Part shown: positions 55,909 to 64,000 of the stretch, one piece after another
How positions within the stretch are numbered: position 1 is the first letter of the stretch
How the letters are laid out: each line of letters opens with the position of its first letter
Assembly (NCBI GenBank): GCA_018436705.1
Contig: JAHDLA010000007.1
Coordinates: 62,001-126,000 of the forward strand
Source: Sedimentibacter sp.
GTDB taxonomy: Bacteria > Bacillota > Clostridia > Tissierellales > Sedimentibacteraceae
Direction of reading: 5' to 3'
DNA length: 64,000 nucleotides
The notes under the pieces: generated by a model
Databases searched by the model: none
What the model was told of the DNA's origin: nothing
What the model saw: only the letters and a program-made list of their open reading frames with translations
Program-made: the position numbers and the translations under genes

Positions 55909-56271
55909 CTTATCCTCCTAATATTATCATTATTCATTTCTATTATATCACAGTTATCATTATAAATAACTTTTAAGTTGTACATTGCTTCCCACCTATA
56001 ATAACGCAGAAAATATAATCTTTAATCCACTTTTAAATTTTATTACTTAAATATAACAGTACATGTATTTAAAAAAATGTCCAGAAAGAACCGTCCCTAT
56101 TAGATATCAAGCGGATAAGATAGTTTTTGAGTGGAAATGTTATCAGTCAATAGTGAATTTATTTTTAAAGTTTTATAAAAAAATTGCAACATTTTCGCTT
56201 TCTCATCTGTATATAAAGCAGAACAGCAAATACGCTATTCAAAATCATGAATGACAGAAAGGAAAATAACT
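55909..56271. other. Intergenic stretch with a REP-like half-site
   Basis: AT-rich, no gene. Around 56081-56100 the minus strand reads TAGGGACGGTTCTTTCTGG, the core form of GGGACGGTTCT-type REP elements, but without its pair. Otherwise nothing recognised. Confidence 0.5.
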
Positions 56272-56784
56272 ATGAAAAAAATTATTATTTTAACATTAAG
56301 CGCAATGATGGTGTTCTCCATTGTTGCTTGTGGCAGCAATGGAAACAGCGGAGGAGGTTCCGTTGAAATCCCCAATCCCTTTACTGAGTGCTCTTCTCTT
56401 GACGAAGCCGCAAAAACGGCAGGCTTTTCAATGTCAGTTCCCGACACCATTGACGGGTATGACGAGCACGTGATTCGTACAGTCGCTAGTGATGACGACG
56501 ATTCAATGATTGAGGTTATTTACCATAACGGTGATAACGAAATCGAAAACGAAATCCGTATCCGCAAGTCTGTCGGCAGCAAGGATATCAGCGGAGACTA
56601 CACGCAGTACGCTGAGAACAACATTGTCATCGTTGGAAAACTCCAAGTTACCATGAAAGGTGAGGATGGAAAAATCAGCCTTGCGACATGGACAAATAAT
56701 GGCTATACTTATTCTATTGGTGCCTACTCTGAATCTGGCATTTCCAGTACAGCAATGGAAGATTTAATCACTGCTGTACAATAA
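56272..56784 (+). CDS. Secreted lipoprotein sharing the anti-sigma sensor domain
   Basis: A 170-residue lipoprotein with a signal ending in VFSIVACGSN (Cys near 19). The mature part holds a domain similar to the C-terminus of the anti-sigma protein at 57481-58113: IRIRKSVGSKDISGDYTQY against AVFRKSVGSEDNSGDFNYY, and ISLATWTNNGYTYSIGAYSESGIS against FTLAVWSNDNFSYSLQISDGLS. The ATG at 56272 follows AGAAAGGAAA at good spacing; an upstream in-frame ATG is unlikely. It precedes the ECF sigma gene by 83 bases and is probably co-regulated; the shared domain suggests a decoy or ligand partner of the anti-sigma. The G+C is higher than in neighbours. Confidence 0.82.
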   Translation: MKKIIILTLSAMMVFSIVACGSNGNSGGGSVEIPNPFTECSSLDEAAKTAGFSMSVPDTIDGYDEHVIRTVASDDDDSMIEVIYHNGDNEIENEIRIRKSVGSKDISGDYTQYAENNIVIVGKLQVTMKGEDGKISLATWTNNGYTYSIGAYSESGISSTAMEDLITAVQ

Positions 56785-56867: not shown

Positions 56868-57497
56868 TTGGGCTATTGTATGGCACAAGAATCTATTATT
56901 GAAACATGTAAAACATGTATTCTATCGGCACTTTTCTGGATTTGCAACCATTTCTATATTCTAACGATCGGCCCAACAGAGCACATAATCGCAGAAACGG
57001 TTGGACGTAAAGTTGCAAATCAGAAGGCCGCGCGAATACTGGACGAACAAGGAAACCGCATTCTGCGGTTGGCATACTCTTATCTGCAAAACATGAGCGA
57101 TGCTGAAGAAATCTTACAAGATACACTGATTCAGTTTTTGAAAATGGCTCCCACATTTGAAAGTAAAGAGCATGAAAAGGCATGGCTTTTGCGTGTTGCG
57201 GCCAATCTCAGCAAAAACCGAATAAAATATAACTCAATTCGGAAAACGGACGAACTGAACGAAACACTGGCTGAGGAGCACCGAGAAGACTTATCCTTTG
57301 TGTGGGAGGCAATTAAAGAGCTCCCATCACAATACCGGGAAGTAATCCATCTGTTTTATTATGAAGGTTATTCGACTGCACAAATTGCGACGCTTCTCAA
57401 AATGAAAGAAGCAACAGTCCGTTCTAATCTTCACCGAGGACGGGCGAAATTGAAGAATATTTTGAAGGAGGCGTACGATTTTGAAGAAACGATATAA
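56868..57497 (+). CDS. ECF sigma factor with unusual N-terminal extension
   Basis: A 209-residue sigma factor starting at a TTG that lies eight bases after AGGAGGG. Region 2 begins only near residue 55 (RILDEQGNRILRLAYSYLQNMSDAEEILQDTLIQFLKMAP, then KAWLLRVAANLSKNRIKYN), and region 4 is near 150-200 (ELPSQYREVIHLFYYEGYSTAQIATLLKMKEATVRSNLHRGRAKLKNIL). The first 45 residues, rich in Cys and aromatic residues (TCKTCILSALFWICNHFYI), are not part of a standard ECF factor; they may be spurious or an unusual membrane/redox-linked element. Its stop overlaps the next gene start by 17 bases. Confidence 0.9.
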   Translation: MGYCMAQESIIETCKTCILSALFWICNHFYILTIGPTEHIIAETVGRKVANQKAARILDEQGNRILRLAYSYLQNMSDAEEILQDTLIQFLKMAPTFESKEHEKAWLLRVAANLSKNRIKYNSIRKTDELNETLAEEHREDLSFVWEAIKELPSQYREVIHLFYYEGYSTAQIATLLKMKEATVRSNLHRGRAKLKNILKEAYDFEETI

Positions 57498-58113
57498 TGA
57501 GATTATGGATAAGATTGAAGTTACTGATGTAATGCGTAACCGCATCCTGCAAAACATTAAACAGGCAGATGTTACGGCCACAGGAAATGCAAAAGTTGTC
57601 CATTTCTCCTCCATAAAAAAATATTTATCCGTAGCCGCTTGCTTTGCAGTGTTGCTGATTGGAGCATTGACCGTTCCTCATTTGCTAAATATAGGGCAGG
57701 ACAATGAGCCGGGACTAATGGAGCCGAGCGATAACATTGTAACCGTGTCTTCTGTTGAAGAACTTTCAGACGCTGTGAGCTTTAGCGTAGAGGAAGTTGA
57801 AGGTTTACCTTTTTATTCAAAGGAACAAGCTTATGTTGCTTATTGGAGTGAACTGGCTCAAATCACATATATTGGCGAGAGACAAACCGCCGTTTTCAGA
57901 AAATCTGTTGGAAGTGAAGATAATTCTGGCGACTTCAATTACTACCCTACAATAAAGGAAATGTCTGTCGGGACTATTACTGCAACGCTTAAAGGAAACT
58001 CCGACATTTTTACGCTGGCAGTTTGGTCAAATGATAATTTCTCATATTCTCTGCAAATTTCTGACGGACTATCAGCAATGGAGTGGGAATCGCTTATTAC
58101 AAAGATAAATTAA
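57481..58113 (+). CDS. Anti-sigma factor, DUF4367-like, with extracytoplasmic sensor domain
   Basis: A 210-residue protein starting at TTG 57481, inside the end of the sigma gene, with GGAGG nine bases upstream. The N-terminal 45 residues are cytoplasmic (MDKIEVTDVMRNRILQNIKQ, the likely sigma-binding part), a membrane helix follows (about 50-70, LSVAACFAVLLIGALTVPHLL) and an extracytoplasmic DUF4367-like domain (about 90-210). Its end matches the lipoprotein at 56272-56784. Overlap with the sigma gene is typical of sigma/anti-sigma pairs. Confidence 0.85.
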   Translation: MKKRYNEIMDKIEVTDVMRNRILQNIKQADVTATGNAKVVHFSSIKKYLSVAACFAVLLIGALTVPHLLNIGQDNEPGLMEPSDNIVTVSSVEELSDAVSFSVEEVEGLPFYSKEQAYVAYWSELAQITYIGERQTAVFRKSVGSEDNSGDFNYYPTIKEMSVGTITATLKGNSDIFTLAVWSNDNFSYSLQISDGLSAMEWESLITKIN

Positions 58114-58763: not shown

Positions 58764-61031
58764 TTACAAGTCACTTAGCATAGCATTTAATTTATTAACT
58801 GTTTCCCAGTCTCGTACTGTGGCAGAATCAAATATTTTTTCAATGTGCATTGCTAATTTTGATTTTTGTATGCTTTGGTTGCAAAGAAGATATAGTTCTC
58901 TTTTTCCTACACGTAAAATGTCCGAACCACAATTCTCCATGCAGCTGTTATCAATCAGTATTTTCTCCAATGAATTATCAAGAAAATATACATAAATGTG
59001 TTCAACATGTGAATCGGTAGCTTCAGATGTTGCTATTTCTTCTTCTGAGAAGGGGCAGTTACTAATCAAAGCTCTTATTTCATTTTCATTTCGTATTATT
59101 ACACAGCTATTAAATCCAAAGCGTTCATAAAAGCCGTTATAAATCACATCATGCAAAGATGCTTCATCAAGGTTAGTCTCAAAAACTACATTGCCACTCT
59201 GAATATATGTATTGACTTCACGCAAACCCAAATCAAGTAACATCTGCTTTAACTCTTCCATTTTTACAATATTTTTTCCATCAAAATTAATTTCCTTAAA
59301 AAATGCAGCATATTTCATGGTGCCTTTTTTGAAAGTTAAGCCAAGAAGCATATACAGCTCATCTTTGTATGGAAGCACTTGAGTGTATAGCTGAGTGTAT
59401 GCCCTGCCAATTGCGCCACTAAACGGAATCATTTTTGGTGAATCCTTTCCACAGTTTAGAATATGCTTATAAGATATTCCAGGGTATTGGTCAATATAGT
59501 ATATTTTTGAAATCCCAGTATGGCATGCTTTCTTAGAACACAACTCACATGGACTTGCTGTTGTAAACAAGTATCCACCTCTTACTGATGGTGCACCAAT
59601 TCTTGATGATTGAAGAAAAGCCATTTCTTCTGCGTGAACAGAACGTGTATGTACTTGATTTTTTTGACCTTTGTATGCGTTATACGCATCCTTAAAGCAA
59701 TAGGAGCAATTTCTCCCATCCAGTAAAGAAAAATCAATTTTTGCAACCTTGCTGCGTAAAAACTCCCGGTATTCTGTATCTGTGCGCTCATATTCACTCA
59801 TCCCAATTTCATCATCTTTATCATCACGAACAAGGGTAAGTAAAGATCTTAAACTGCATGGAATTTGATTAGCTGGAGCCGTATTCCAACCTGTAGCTAT
59901 GATATTATATTCTTTATCTGAAATGACAGCACCAACCAACCTTGATAAGCATCCAGAGTTCAACTTTGAGTCAAAAGCTACTTGCATGCAGTACTCAATC
60001 TGAGTTGGAGGAACAAGCCCTGGGTGCATGATTAATCCAACATATCTTATTACTTGTCTCTTTGCTGCTGCATAGTTTTTGGATTTGGAGTCCGAGTTAT
60101 TAATGTGAACGTCTGCAATTTCAACAGTTTTTTCAATATTGATGTGAAAGAAATCGTTAATCGAATTATTTAAAGATGGGTATTCCTTTTCGTCAAGATC
60201 AATAAAACTGGTATAAGTGAAACCTTTTTGAACCAAACGGTTTTGTCTTTCATCATCGGACGCATTAACCGCAAACAAATAGAATGCAGAGTATCTATCC
60301 TTGAAAAAAGTTGCCTCATAGGGATTTCTGAATGCATCTATAACAACCAACACTCGCTGTTTCTCCTTAAGATTCCGTTTCCTAAGAATCTTAATTAACA
60401 TATTGACGCGTTGAGAAAGATTCAACACGTTCTGTGGAACGATTGAGTTAGAGAACACATCACCTGATGCACGAATATTATCTCCGATTTGTTGCAGCAA
60501 CTTTGTGTATACACCAATAGGTATAAGTTTCTGAAATTCCACATAATGCATAGGTATTTCATTAAAATAGAATGAGAATATATCATCGCTTGATGGTACA
60601 CCTTCACCTTTTTCATTAGATGTAATGGTTTCATTTTTCCACTTCATCCTTTTCTCATGAAGCATAGTGTATGTTTCTTTATAAGTCGAGATATCAATCT
60701 TTTCATTAGCAATCTTGTTTATAAATTCTGAAGTCGTGTCATAATCATGCTCAAGAATAAAAGTAAATATTACATGTTTCATTTCTATAAGCCGAAAAGG
60801 AATCCATGCGTTTTTGACATACTCATAGATTATACTATACTCTCGTCCTTCAATACTTTCGTTGTCTGAAGGAATCGGCGGTTGCATATCCTTAAAACTT
60901 TTACAAAGCAGCTGGGCAACAGTAGTACATCCACAGCCTGTTCTTCCAGTTAAGCCAATGATAATAAAATCTTTCCGCTCTGCGAATATTCTCTCAACAG
61001 CAGAGTTTTCAAGTGTTAGTACATTTTTCAC
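58764..61031 (-). CDS. Anti-phage dCTP deaminase-like protein fused to DUF1697
   Basis: A 755-residue single frame with three parts. Residues 1-320 hold a nucleotide-kinase-like P-loop domain (GLTGRTGCGCTT, 26-37; later LVVIDAFRNPYEATFFKDRY near 228). Residues 330-560 are a deaminase of the dCMP/cytidine deaminase fold: a VGLIMHPGLVPPTQIEYCMQVA entry helix, zinc ligands HAE at 466-468 and PCELC at 494-498. This pair is the layout of the anti-phage dCTP deaminases, which destroy dCTP after infection. Residues 572-755 are a DUF1697 domain (MKYAAFFKEINFDGKNIVKM, QSGNVVFETN at 611-620). That domain starts with a Met behind AAAGG, so separate translation is possible. The fusion is not known to me. 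Confidence 0.86.
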   Translation of the reverse strand: MKNVLTLENSAVERIFAERKDFIIIGLTGRTGCGCTTVAQLLCKSFKDMQPPIPSDNESIEGREYSIIYEYVKNAWIPFRLIEMKHVIFTFILEHDYDTTSEFINKIANEKIDISTYKETYTMLHEKRMKWKNETITSNEKGEGVPSSDDIFSFYFNEIPMHYVEFQKLIPIGVYTKLLQQIGDNIRASGDVFSNSIVPQNVLNLSQRVNMLIKILRKRNLKEKQRVLVVIDAFRNPYEATFFKDRYSAFYLFAVNASDDERQNRLVQKGFTYTSFIDLDEKEYPSLNNSINDFFHINIEKTVEIADVHINNSDSKSKNYAAAKRQVIRYVGLIMHPGLVPPTQIEYCMQVAFDSKLNSGCLSRLVGAVISDKEYNIIATGWNTAPANQIPCSLRSLLTLVRDDKDDEIGMSEYERTDTEYREFLRSKVAKIDFSLLDGRNCSYCFKDAYNAYKGQKNQVHTRSVHAEEMAFLQSSRIGAPSVRGGYLFTTASPCELCSKKACHTGISKIYYIDQYPGISYKHILNCGKDSPKMIPFSGAIGRAYTQLYTQVLPYKDELYMLLGLTFKKGTMKYAAFFKEINFDGKNIVKMEELKQMLLDLGLREVNTYIQSGNVVFETNLDEASLHDVIYNGFYERFGFNSCVIIRNENEIRALISNCPFSEEEIATSEATDSHVEHIYVYFLDNSLEKILIDNSCMENCGSDILRVGKRELYLLCNQSIQKSKLAMHIEKIFDSATVRDWETVNKLNAMLSDL

Positions 61032-61144
61032 GACAATACACTCCCTTCAATTTTCAACTTATTTCTGTAATAATAAAACCAATTTCAACTTTCTCTAATT
61101 GCTACAATAGCTTGTCTATCACAAATATTGTGTAAAGCAATAGA

Positions 61145-61802: not shown

Positions 61803-62540
61803 TCAATTTCTCTGCCAATTAGAGTAATCAATAGTTAATATGATTTCCTGTACAGCTTGTCTAAGTTCCGTCTTAAAACTATCAATATCATTTTTTTTCG
61901 CCAAATAACGCCTGTTATGTGCACTTAAATCACCATATTGCTTTACAGATGTCAAACTTTTGCGTATATTACGACTGGCATTCCACTTTGGCGAATTAAG
62001 ATAACGAGGTATCAAGTCACTCAAATAAAAAAACACACCGTTTTGATCTTTTATCTCACTATCAACCCCATATCGCTCAAAACATTCAATAATTAATGTT
62101 TCTGTAAGCTTTCTCATAAGAACTAAAGTTCCATTATAAAAGCCGCTATCATAGCAATGAATCATTTCTTTGGCTATAGATATAATATAGTATGGTGCGT
62201 GATCAAAAACTGATAAATCAATGAGATTAAGCGATACTGGCAGAGCAATTATTTCATTAACAGCAATTGCAATTTGTTCTTGAGTAGACCGATTAAAAAT
62301 GTACCCATCTTTTTTCTTGATATACTTACCGTTCTTTTTGGAATTCCGGTTCAAATAGTAAGGTATATTTGAATATGGCTGTAGTGACAAGCTGTCAAAG
62401 CATTTCCTTATTTGTGAAGCTGAAAATGTACTTTGCTTGCATACTTGCTGTAGATAATAAGCAAAGTAATCAATCAGTTGTGCAGCTGTTTTCTCTTTGA
62501 ACTCTGGGATACGAAAAATAAACAACTCTAATTCTTTCAT
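61803..62540 (-). CDS. HEPN/DUF4145-like protein of a coupled pair
   Basis: A 245-residue protein, probably cytoplasmic. The N-terminal half (1-110) holds FRIPEFKEKTAAQLIDYFAYYLQQV and a basic RNSKKNGKYIKKKDGYIF strip suited to nucleic acid binding. The C-terminal half (120-245) is helical: GFYNGTLVLMRKLTETLIIECFERYG, an ISRNIRKSLTSVKQYGDLSAHNRRYLAKKNDI region and LRQAVQEIILTIDY. The GDLSAHNRR motif near the end resembles HEPN/DUF4145 domains, where Arg and His form RNase sites. Its ATG overlaps the stop of the 310-residue gene by one base. I infer an RNA-targeting toxin or effector; not shown. Confidence 0.6.
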   Translation of the reverse strand: MKELELFIFRIPEFKEKTAAQLIDYFAYYLQQVCKQSTFSASQIRKCFDSLSLQPYSNIPYYLNRNSKKNGKYIKKKDGYIFNRSTQEQIAIAVNEIIALPVSLNLIDLSVFDHAPYYIISIAKEMIHCYDSGFYNGTLVLMRKLTETLIIECFERYGVDSEIKDQNGVFFYLSDLIPRYLNSPKWNASRNIRKSLTSVKQYGDLSAHNRRYLAKKNDIDSFKTELRQAVQEIILTIDYSNWQRN

Positions 62541-63472
62541 TATTCATTACCACGATCTTTTTCTAGTTGTTTTGCTCGGTCTTCTCCTAAATGATGTAAT
62601 TTGTACATCCCAGGCGTATTGCCTGGAACATAATAATTTTTAAAACTCTTTCCATTACTTAATGAACCTTTTAAATCATAGGAGGTAGGCAAACCAGCAA
62701 TTCTCAGTGCAGTAAATATAGTATTTTCATTAATTTCAATAACATCATATTGGTTAAGTCTATACGCAATAATAACCGCTCTATCCATATTATTCAATGA
62801 GGAAAACGATAGTATGTATTGCTTGAAATCTTGACGCTGTCCTTCGTCCAACCCTAAATCAATTATGCTATATGTTGCTTTTGCTGAGTTGATAGTTTTC
62901 TTTGTTTTTTTTGAACTGCTATCTTCTGAAGTCCTCTGTAGAATTTCGTAAGCTAAAGCTTTTCCGCGATCAGTCAGCGAATATTCAGTATCGTTTATTG
63001 TTATAAACCAATTTGATGTAACAGCTTTTCTTCTATTAGTCGCAAAATTTTTATTTCTACTTTCTGTAAAGCGGTTTGAAGCATGATACATTTGGCGTAC
63101 ATCATCTTCCGTAAAAGCCTTCTTTCCTTCATCTGATGCATAAAAAGCATAAACCAGCATCCACTCAGCTTCTGTTTTAGGTAGATTCTTTAACACTACA
63201 TCTTTAATATTTGGCAACAAAATAGCACTTTTTTCTTTATGATCATGAGTATCTACATTTTCATTATTAGTAACTGGGACATTCTCTTCAATTTTCGTTA
63301 TTGATGTTTCGTCCACCTCCTCATATCTTGGCAGCATAAACTCTGATGTGCCTAGCTTTCCTAATCCATTCTCACGCAGTTCCGAGAAAATAGTATGGAC
63401 TAACTTTCCGTCACCTTCCAATTCAATGTTAGCATCTCCAACACAAACTTTTAGTTTAAAAGTATCATTCAT
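62540..63472 (-). CDS. Winged-helix-like protein of a coupled pair
   Basis: A 310-residue protein. The N-terminal 50 residues (FKLKVCVGDANIELEGDGKLVHTIFSEL) look like a small beta-sheet domain. Residues about 105-195 form a winged-helix-like stretch: LPKTEAEWMLVYAFYASDEGKKAFTEDDVRQMY, ASNRFTESRNKNFATNRRKAV, NDTEYSLTDRGKALAYEIL. A second helical unit follows at 215-300 (MDRAVIIAYRLNQYDVIEINENTIFTALRIAGLP), also like a helix-turn-helix. The ATG at 63472 has GGAAGGAAG upstream; a longer frame to 63529 does not. A sensor or DNA-binding partner of the 245-residue protein is likely; no family recognised. Confidence 0.6.
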   Translation of the reverse strand: MNDTFKLKVCVGDANIELEGDGKLVHTIFSELRENGLGKLGTSEFMLPRYEEVDETSITKIEENVPVTNNENVDTHDHKEKSAILLPNIKDVVLKNLPKTEAEWMLVYAFYASDEGKKAFTEDDVRQMYHASNRFTESRNKNFATNRRKAVTSNWFITINDTEYSLTDRGKALAYEILQRTSEDSSSKKTKKTINSAKATYSIIDLGLDEGQRQDFKQYILSFSSLNNMDRAVIIAYRLNQYDVIEINENTIFTALRIAGLPTSYDLKGSLSNGKSFKNYYVPGNTPGMYKLHHLGEDRAKQLEKDRGNE

Positions 63473-64000
63473 TTTATTCTTCCTTCCTGGTTTTATTTTA
63501 AATTCATTCATTAGCCTGATACACATCAATTCTCTTGTTCAAGATTAAAGATTTTAATCCTTGTTCCTTATGCTTCTCATTATTGCTACAATACTACGTT
63601 GACGAACATATAATTAATATCCTAATCAAAATTATTTATAGTTCATTTATATTCTTCGAAATTTTTACAAATTATACTATATTATAACATTATTTCTAAT
63701 TTTGCTCAAATGTATTTCAGTATATTTACTAGTATATTTAATAAAAAACAAGCACTTTAATTTTATAATAAGGATACTTGTTCAATAGTTAATATAAATA
63801 ATTAAATTTACAACAATATATCTAATCTGCTTATTATCTCGCTAAAATCAGATTAATCTATACCTTCTTTGAACTTTCTATAATTGCATTTGCTTTCTAT
63901 CTTCCCGGAATAATTCAATTAATTGCTCCACCAACTCTTTTTTGTTATGAATAATCTGTACTTATTTAGGCATTTGTTCAGCATGGTATATAATAAATTA
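63473..64000. other. Right-edge intergenic region
   Basis: No gene of note. Near 63878-63973 the minus strand reads MPK, stop, VQIIHNKKELVEQLIELFREDRKQMQ, a small broken frame of unknown origin. The rest is AT-rich with no clear signal; a promoter for the coupled pair cannot be picked out with confidence. Confidence 0.4.

Follow-up and report, generated by a model that had tools for sequence, protein, structure and literature searches.

Among the anti-phage dCTP deaminases, AvcD is a deoxycytidylate deaminase that is activated on infection and depletes nucleotides (PMC10511110). AvcD and the related proteins gathered in the PADLOC family PDLC02373 and the NCBIfam model NF041025 combine a P-loop N-terminal part with a zinc deaminase C-terminal part, and a likewise organised protein is encoded in the DNA analysed here, a stretch of 64,000 nucleotides (hereafter the window) of the genome of a Sedimentibacter sp. 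(GCA_018436705.1, 3.77 Mb in 35 contigs; the stretch corresponds to G000:C12:62001-126000). In this case the deaminase continues in the same reading frame into DUF1697, a family that typically occurs as a stand-alone small protein of ~180-200 aa, and for whose function a literature search returned sparse mention. The features of the fused gene are the following.

58764..61031 (-), fused ORF of dCTP deaminase and DUF1697, 755 aa, GTG start, TAA stop
61039..61048 (-), Shine-Dalgarno (SD) of the fused ORF, GAAGGGAGTG, anti-SD pairing of -12.9 kcal/mol
59325..61004 (-), anti-phage dCTP deaminase part, residues 10-569, PADLOC PDLC02373, E=6.2e-125
60921..60956 (-), P-loop GLTGRTGCGCTT, residues 26-37, read directly, its columns conserved in a 107-row family alignment
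59628..59636 (-), HAE, zinc ligand His and catalytic Glu, residues 466-468, conserved in the 107 rows
59538..59552 (-), PCELC, zinc ligand cysteines, residues 494-498, with C495 and C498 conserved in the 107 rows
59325..59330 (-), A6 tract at the junction (T6 on the + strand), from the frame simulation
59316..59318 (-), ATG of Met572, where the DUF1697 part begins, with a weak ribosome site of -3.8 kcal/mol
58767..59318 (-), complete DUF1697 domain, residues 572-755, PF08002 with E=3e-30, 60% identity to the stand-alone protein of genome G010
59277..59297 (-), KEINFDG replacing the signature RGINVGG, residues 579-585, from the comparison with stand-alone homologues
58806..58814 (-), RDW replacing the family RN(W), residues 740-742, the N being found in 94% of homologues

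The uninterrupted 755-residue frame announced in the original prediction, which was made from the sequence alone, is indeed present at positions 58764-61031 of the (-) strand, inside a stop-free open frame of 760 codons recovered in the genome search, and its SD ranks among the strongest in the window, where gene starts average -8.8 kcal/mol. The motifs quoted there were all recovered (the P-loop, HAE, PCELC and MKYAAFFKEINFDGKN from Met572), and both domain identities were correct, with PADLOC and Pfam profile matches far beyond chance.

A closer view of the deaminase half shows that the PADLOC dCTPase profile spans both its P-loop and its deaminase parts (residues 10-569), and that HAE is invariant in alignment A1. 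Among the 118 columns that are at least 90% conserved in the 107-member family alignment, the fused protein departs at 12, and since none of these departures is a zinc or catalytic residue, the deaminase part is expected to be active. The closest deaminase, that of S. saalensis (G018, NZ_VLKH01000001; L004/L046), is 62% identical over residues 7-571 and shows 9 departures, with 8 of the fused protein's 12 falling at the same positions. The full NF041025 model scored 360.9 bits, under its 400-bit equivalog cut-off; because the unfused relatives P0006, P0007 and P0004 are also below it (371, 363.6 and 373.1), such a score is a trait of the group, not of the fusion, and what is claimed here is membership in the PADLOC family of dCTP deaminases, with no claim to curated-equivalog status. 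Judged by its sequence, this half is a true anti-phage dCTP deaminase and belongs to a Sedimentibacter clade; its solved relatives by sequence are dCMP deaminases. From its family relatives we infer a defence activity, in which the deaminase part would lie dormant until infection, as they do, and would then convert dCTP and related deoxycytidines into their uracil forms, so that a drained dCTP pool would stop phage replication. A candidate AvcI-like antitoxin RNA upstream of the fused gene found no support in either of two scans: there was no Rfam match, a search that an unrelated RNA would escape, and upstream folding was no higher than expected (z 0.22), a test that an unrelated RNA would also escape. 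Elsewhere in the family, the dCTP deaminase annotated as anti-phage in plasmid pGM01 of Geminocystis sp. NIES-3708 (L043:2010-3893) carries PWELC for PCELC, with the loss of one zinc cysteine, and adjoins a gene for dGTP triphosphohydrolase, another nucleotide-depletion enzyme.

The second half is equally complete. The Pfam match to DUF1697 comprises residues 572-714 (105.8 bits versus a gathering cut-off of 24.4), and the alignment with stand-alone homologues extends it to the C-terminus, with no stops and no gaps. The closest DUF1697, at 60% identity, comes from the same genus (G010). There it forms a gene by itself, preceded by a GGAGG SD, and that genome gave no match to this deaminase family. 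The solved relative of the fused DUF1697 part by sequence is 2HIY, and folding this part by itself with AlphaFold gave no usable model (pLDDT 43). Set against 33 homologues that stand alone, the fused copy retains the majority of the conserved positions, among them N582, G585, M591, T608, S612-G613-N614, T738, R740 and T744, and near the C-terminus the T and R of T-x-R-N are kept and the N is changed to D. The replacement of RGINVGG by KEINFDG is unique to the fused copy, the R and G of the signature being found in all the compared stand-alone homologues that reach those positions. Two distant members of the family depart at more conserved positions than the fused copy, so its departure total is not extreme, and what sets it apart is the loss of the RG pair. 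Because KEINFDG stands in the place of RGINVGG, the domain would have a DUF1697 fold by descent and yet be an atypical member, and with the signature motif of the family gone its ancestral activity has probably been lost. Most differences from the nearest DUF1697 that lie outside the motif are synonymous, with a dN/dS well below 1, a pattern that, at the sequence level, indicates past constraint on this part and does not date it to after the fusion. The genome from which the window comes holds a second DUF1697, stand-alone and with a near-normal motif, RGINVSG.

The way in which both halves are joined deserves attention. The part homologous to the S. saalensis deaminase runs up to ...FKK, the part homologous to the stand-alone DUF1697 begins with GGC..ATG, and AAAAAA lies in between. 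The S. saalensis protein itself stops right past the common ...FKK with a short tail of its own, ...NFKKKKKLRVYKINKEILK, and carries no DUF1697. Its neighbours are a type IV restriction enzyme and a NERD protein, and most deaminases of the family have a short tail. In frame simulations, one A fewer gave a deaminase ending in ...FKKAP* at a TGA that overlaps the ATG of DUF1697 as ATGA, two more A's gave an end in ...FKKKAP with the same overlap, and with two A's fewer or one more the deaminase also terminated shortly after. The fused frame therefore depends on the exact length of the A run, and this dependence on a single base could reflect either a real mutation or a sequence error. The original prediction had named a frameshift or assembly error in the stretch from residue 560 to residue 572 as what would take away its novelty; the frame stays open across this region, but its dependence on one A comes close to that condition. 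The ATGA stop/start overlap is a standard layout of coupled bacterial genes, and it is weak evidence when taken alone, because it arises whenever the codon after the ATG begins with A.

Searches for other proteins combining deaminase and DUF1697, as suggested with the original prediction, returned no second case in the samples searched, among which the fusion is a singleton. The deaminase loci examined were 102 (80 from GTDB and 22 from IMG/VR), and DUF1697 was neither fused nor adjacent to the deaminase in any of them; the few true deaminase hits in 391 genomes of the class likewise had no fused or adjacent DUF1697 within short flanks. Across the order (249 genomes) and the phylum (398 genomes), all other DUF1697 hits lay in frames of at most 297 codons, mostly 182-210. 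Plasmid and phage collections gave no match covering 80% of the fused protein, and in viral contigs the junction pattern was absent and a scan for DUF1697 returned pattern matches with no confirmed relative. The neighbours of DUF1697 genes elsewhere were a mix of housekeeping and accessory genes with no enrichment in defence (five PADLOC models, with one protein each, among 102 neighbours), a scan that speaks against DUF1697 as a gene of defence islands.

The surroundings of the fused gene include two upstream genes:

61803..62540 (-), gene for 245 aa with no significant family, weakly DUF5677-like, as context
62540..63529 (-), accessory gene for 329 aa with a weak PADLOC candidate-defence match (PDC-S02, E=9e-4), as context

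These two genes overlap, both lack a clear family, and the 329-aa protein has a single weak match elsewhere in the genus. On the other side, the genes at 56251-56784 and 57481-58113 encode related proteins (29% identical in their C-terminal parts) that flank an ECF-sigma-like gene, and the protein of 57481-58113 also has a single weak match elsewhere in the genus. A comparison with empty sites was attempted with two flanking genes, which had no orthologues in the same genus. Past the end of the window there is a gene for an EF-G-like GTPase of 673 aa (L211:1265-3286, equivalent to G000:C12:126264-128285), and beyond it an AcrB-type efflux operon with a TetR regulator.

Altogether, we favour, with moderate confidence, a known defence enzyme caught in a recent fusion that depends on a single base, with the DUF1697 tail as a passenger. 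Such an accidental and recent event is most likely because the fusion was found once, hangs on one base and has lost the signature residues of the family. Operon ancestry, the direction of the base change and the passenger status are what we infer: the 3' end of the deaminase gene would have come to abut a stand-alone DUF1697 gene, most likely as an ATGA overlap, and a change from A5 to A6 at the junction would then have removed the stop of the deaminase and joined both genes in frame, leaving a tail with no link to dCTP deaminase defence elsewhere. The integrity of the DUF1697 part, free of stops and gaps and apparently constrained outside the motif, would count against a mere passenger. The same single base admits an unlikely alternative in which there are two separate proteins, the true run having five or eight A's and the length of six being a sequencing or assembly error, with DUF1697 produced by coupled re-initiation at the ATGA. 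Either length of the run gives a deaminase of typical length, in agreement with the mostly short tails of the family and with a fusion seen only once, but 154 A/T runs of at least six bases sit in intact long ORFs of the window, and six others in the fused ORF itself, which makes frequent indel errors in such runs unlikely. A further proposal, that the fused gene yields a second product in which translation starts at Met572 and gives DUF1697 by itself, looks highly improbable. The AAAGG from which it was derived does lie 4 bases ahead of the ATG, but its anti-SD pairing falls within the range of the random internal Mets of the fused ORF, far from the mean of the gene starts of the window, and it lacks the GGAGG of the stand-alone relative, so that the letters stand and separate translation is unsupported unless, as with two separate proteins, a stop precedes.

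The remaining reading gives the fusion a function: the altered DUF1697 would have taken on a new role in the deaminase, as a sensor, a partner-binding module or a regulator. It is conceivable because relatives do carry extra C-terminal modules: eight dCTP deaminases of clostridia and other Firmicutes (L090, L095, L103, L106, L107, L113, L115 and L122; e.g., L115:5813-6442) have in common a C-terminal domain of ~205 aa (WTGSSY ... NPNLxYTYxIEW) at the same place. This domain gave no Pfam match in the three cases scanned (L095, L103 and L113), and AlphaFold predicts it with confidence to be all-beta (pLDDT 84), while the chains that Foldseek matched to it belong to M1 aminopeptidases and ribophorin I; the accessory module is recurrent and probably functional. 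The idea that it could be a divergent DUF1697 was unsupported by hhalign. A functional fusion would also fit a full-length, uninterrupted domain, constrained outside the motif, whose changes cluster in the signature and spare other conserved positions, as a change of function could produce. However, neither a second fusion nor a gene adjacency was found, there is nearly no linker, with the DUF beginning exactly at its own Met, and DUF1697 has no defence association and no relative confirmed in viral contigs, which leaves this reading rather unlikely. More specifically, it is quite improbable that an anti-phage dCTP deaminase recruited a DUF1697 with a rewritten motif as a new module for regulation or sensing. 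The original prediction went along these lines, with DUF1697 as a sensor, effector or nucleotide-handling module that adds a second step to dCTP depletion, and it found no comparative support, given that no fusion or adjacency occurs elsewhere in the samples searched, the invariant motif is lost, a defence neighbourhood is missing and the join rests on one A. If the domain had been recruited, this would be the first functional context for DUF1697 and, if functional, a new layer of control on a nucleotide-depletion defence. Under the accidental fusion that we favour, the case stands as a warning that a striking two-domain defence architecture may hang on one homopolymer base, and the better-supported accessory domain is the recurrent one of the clostridial dCTP deaminases.

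In comparison with the known systems, AvcD and the anti-phage dCTP deaminases share with the fused protein all their zinc and catalytic residues, a match along their full length and a similar setting of accessory genes; the fused protein differs by its DUF1697 tail and by its score under the 400 bits of NF041025, the latter common to its unfused relatives. The S. saalensis deaminase has the 8 clade-specific departures from the family in common with it, but ends at ...NFKKKKKLRVYKINKEILK. As for the DUF1697 family (PF08002, 2HIY), the full-length domain and the SGN and T-x-R motifs are common to the fused copy, whereas this copy differs in being fused and has neither the invariant RG of RGINVGG nor the N of RNW. 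Finally, the clostridial deaminases bear their ~205-aa module past the KDEL end of the deaminase, as happens with DUF1697 here, but theirs is all-beta, and hhalign detected no relation between it and DUF1697 (probability of 0.3%).
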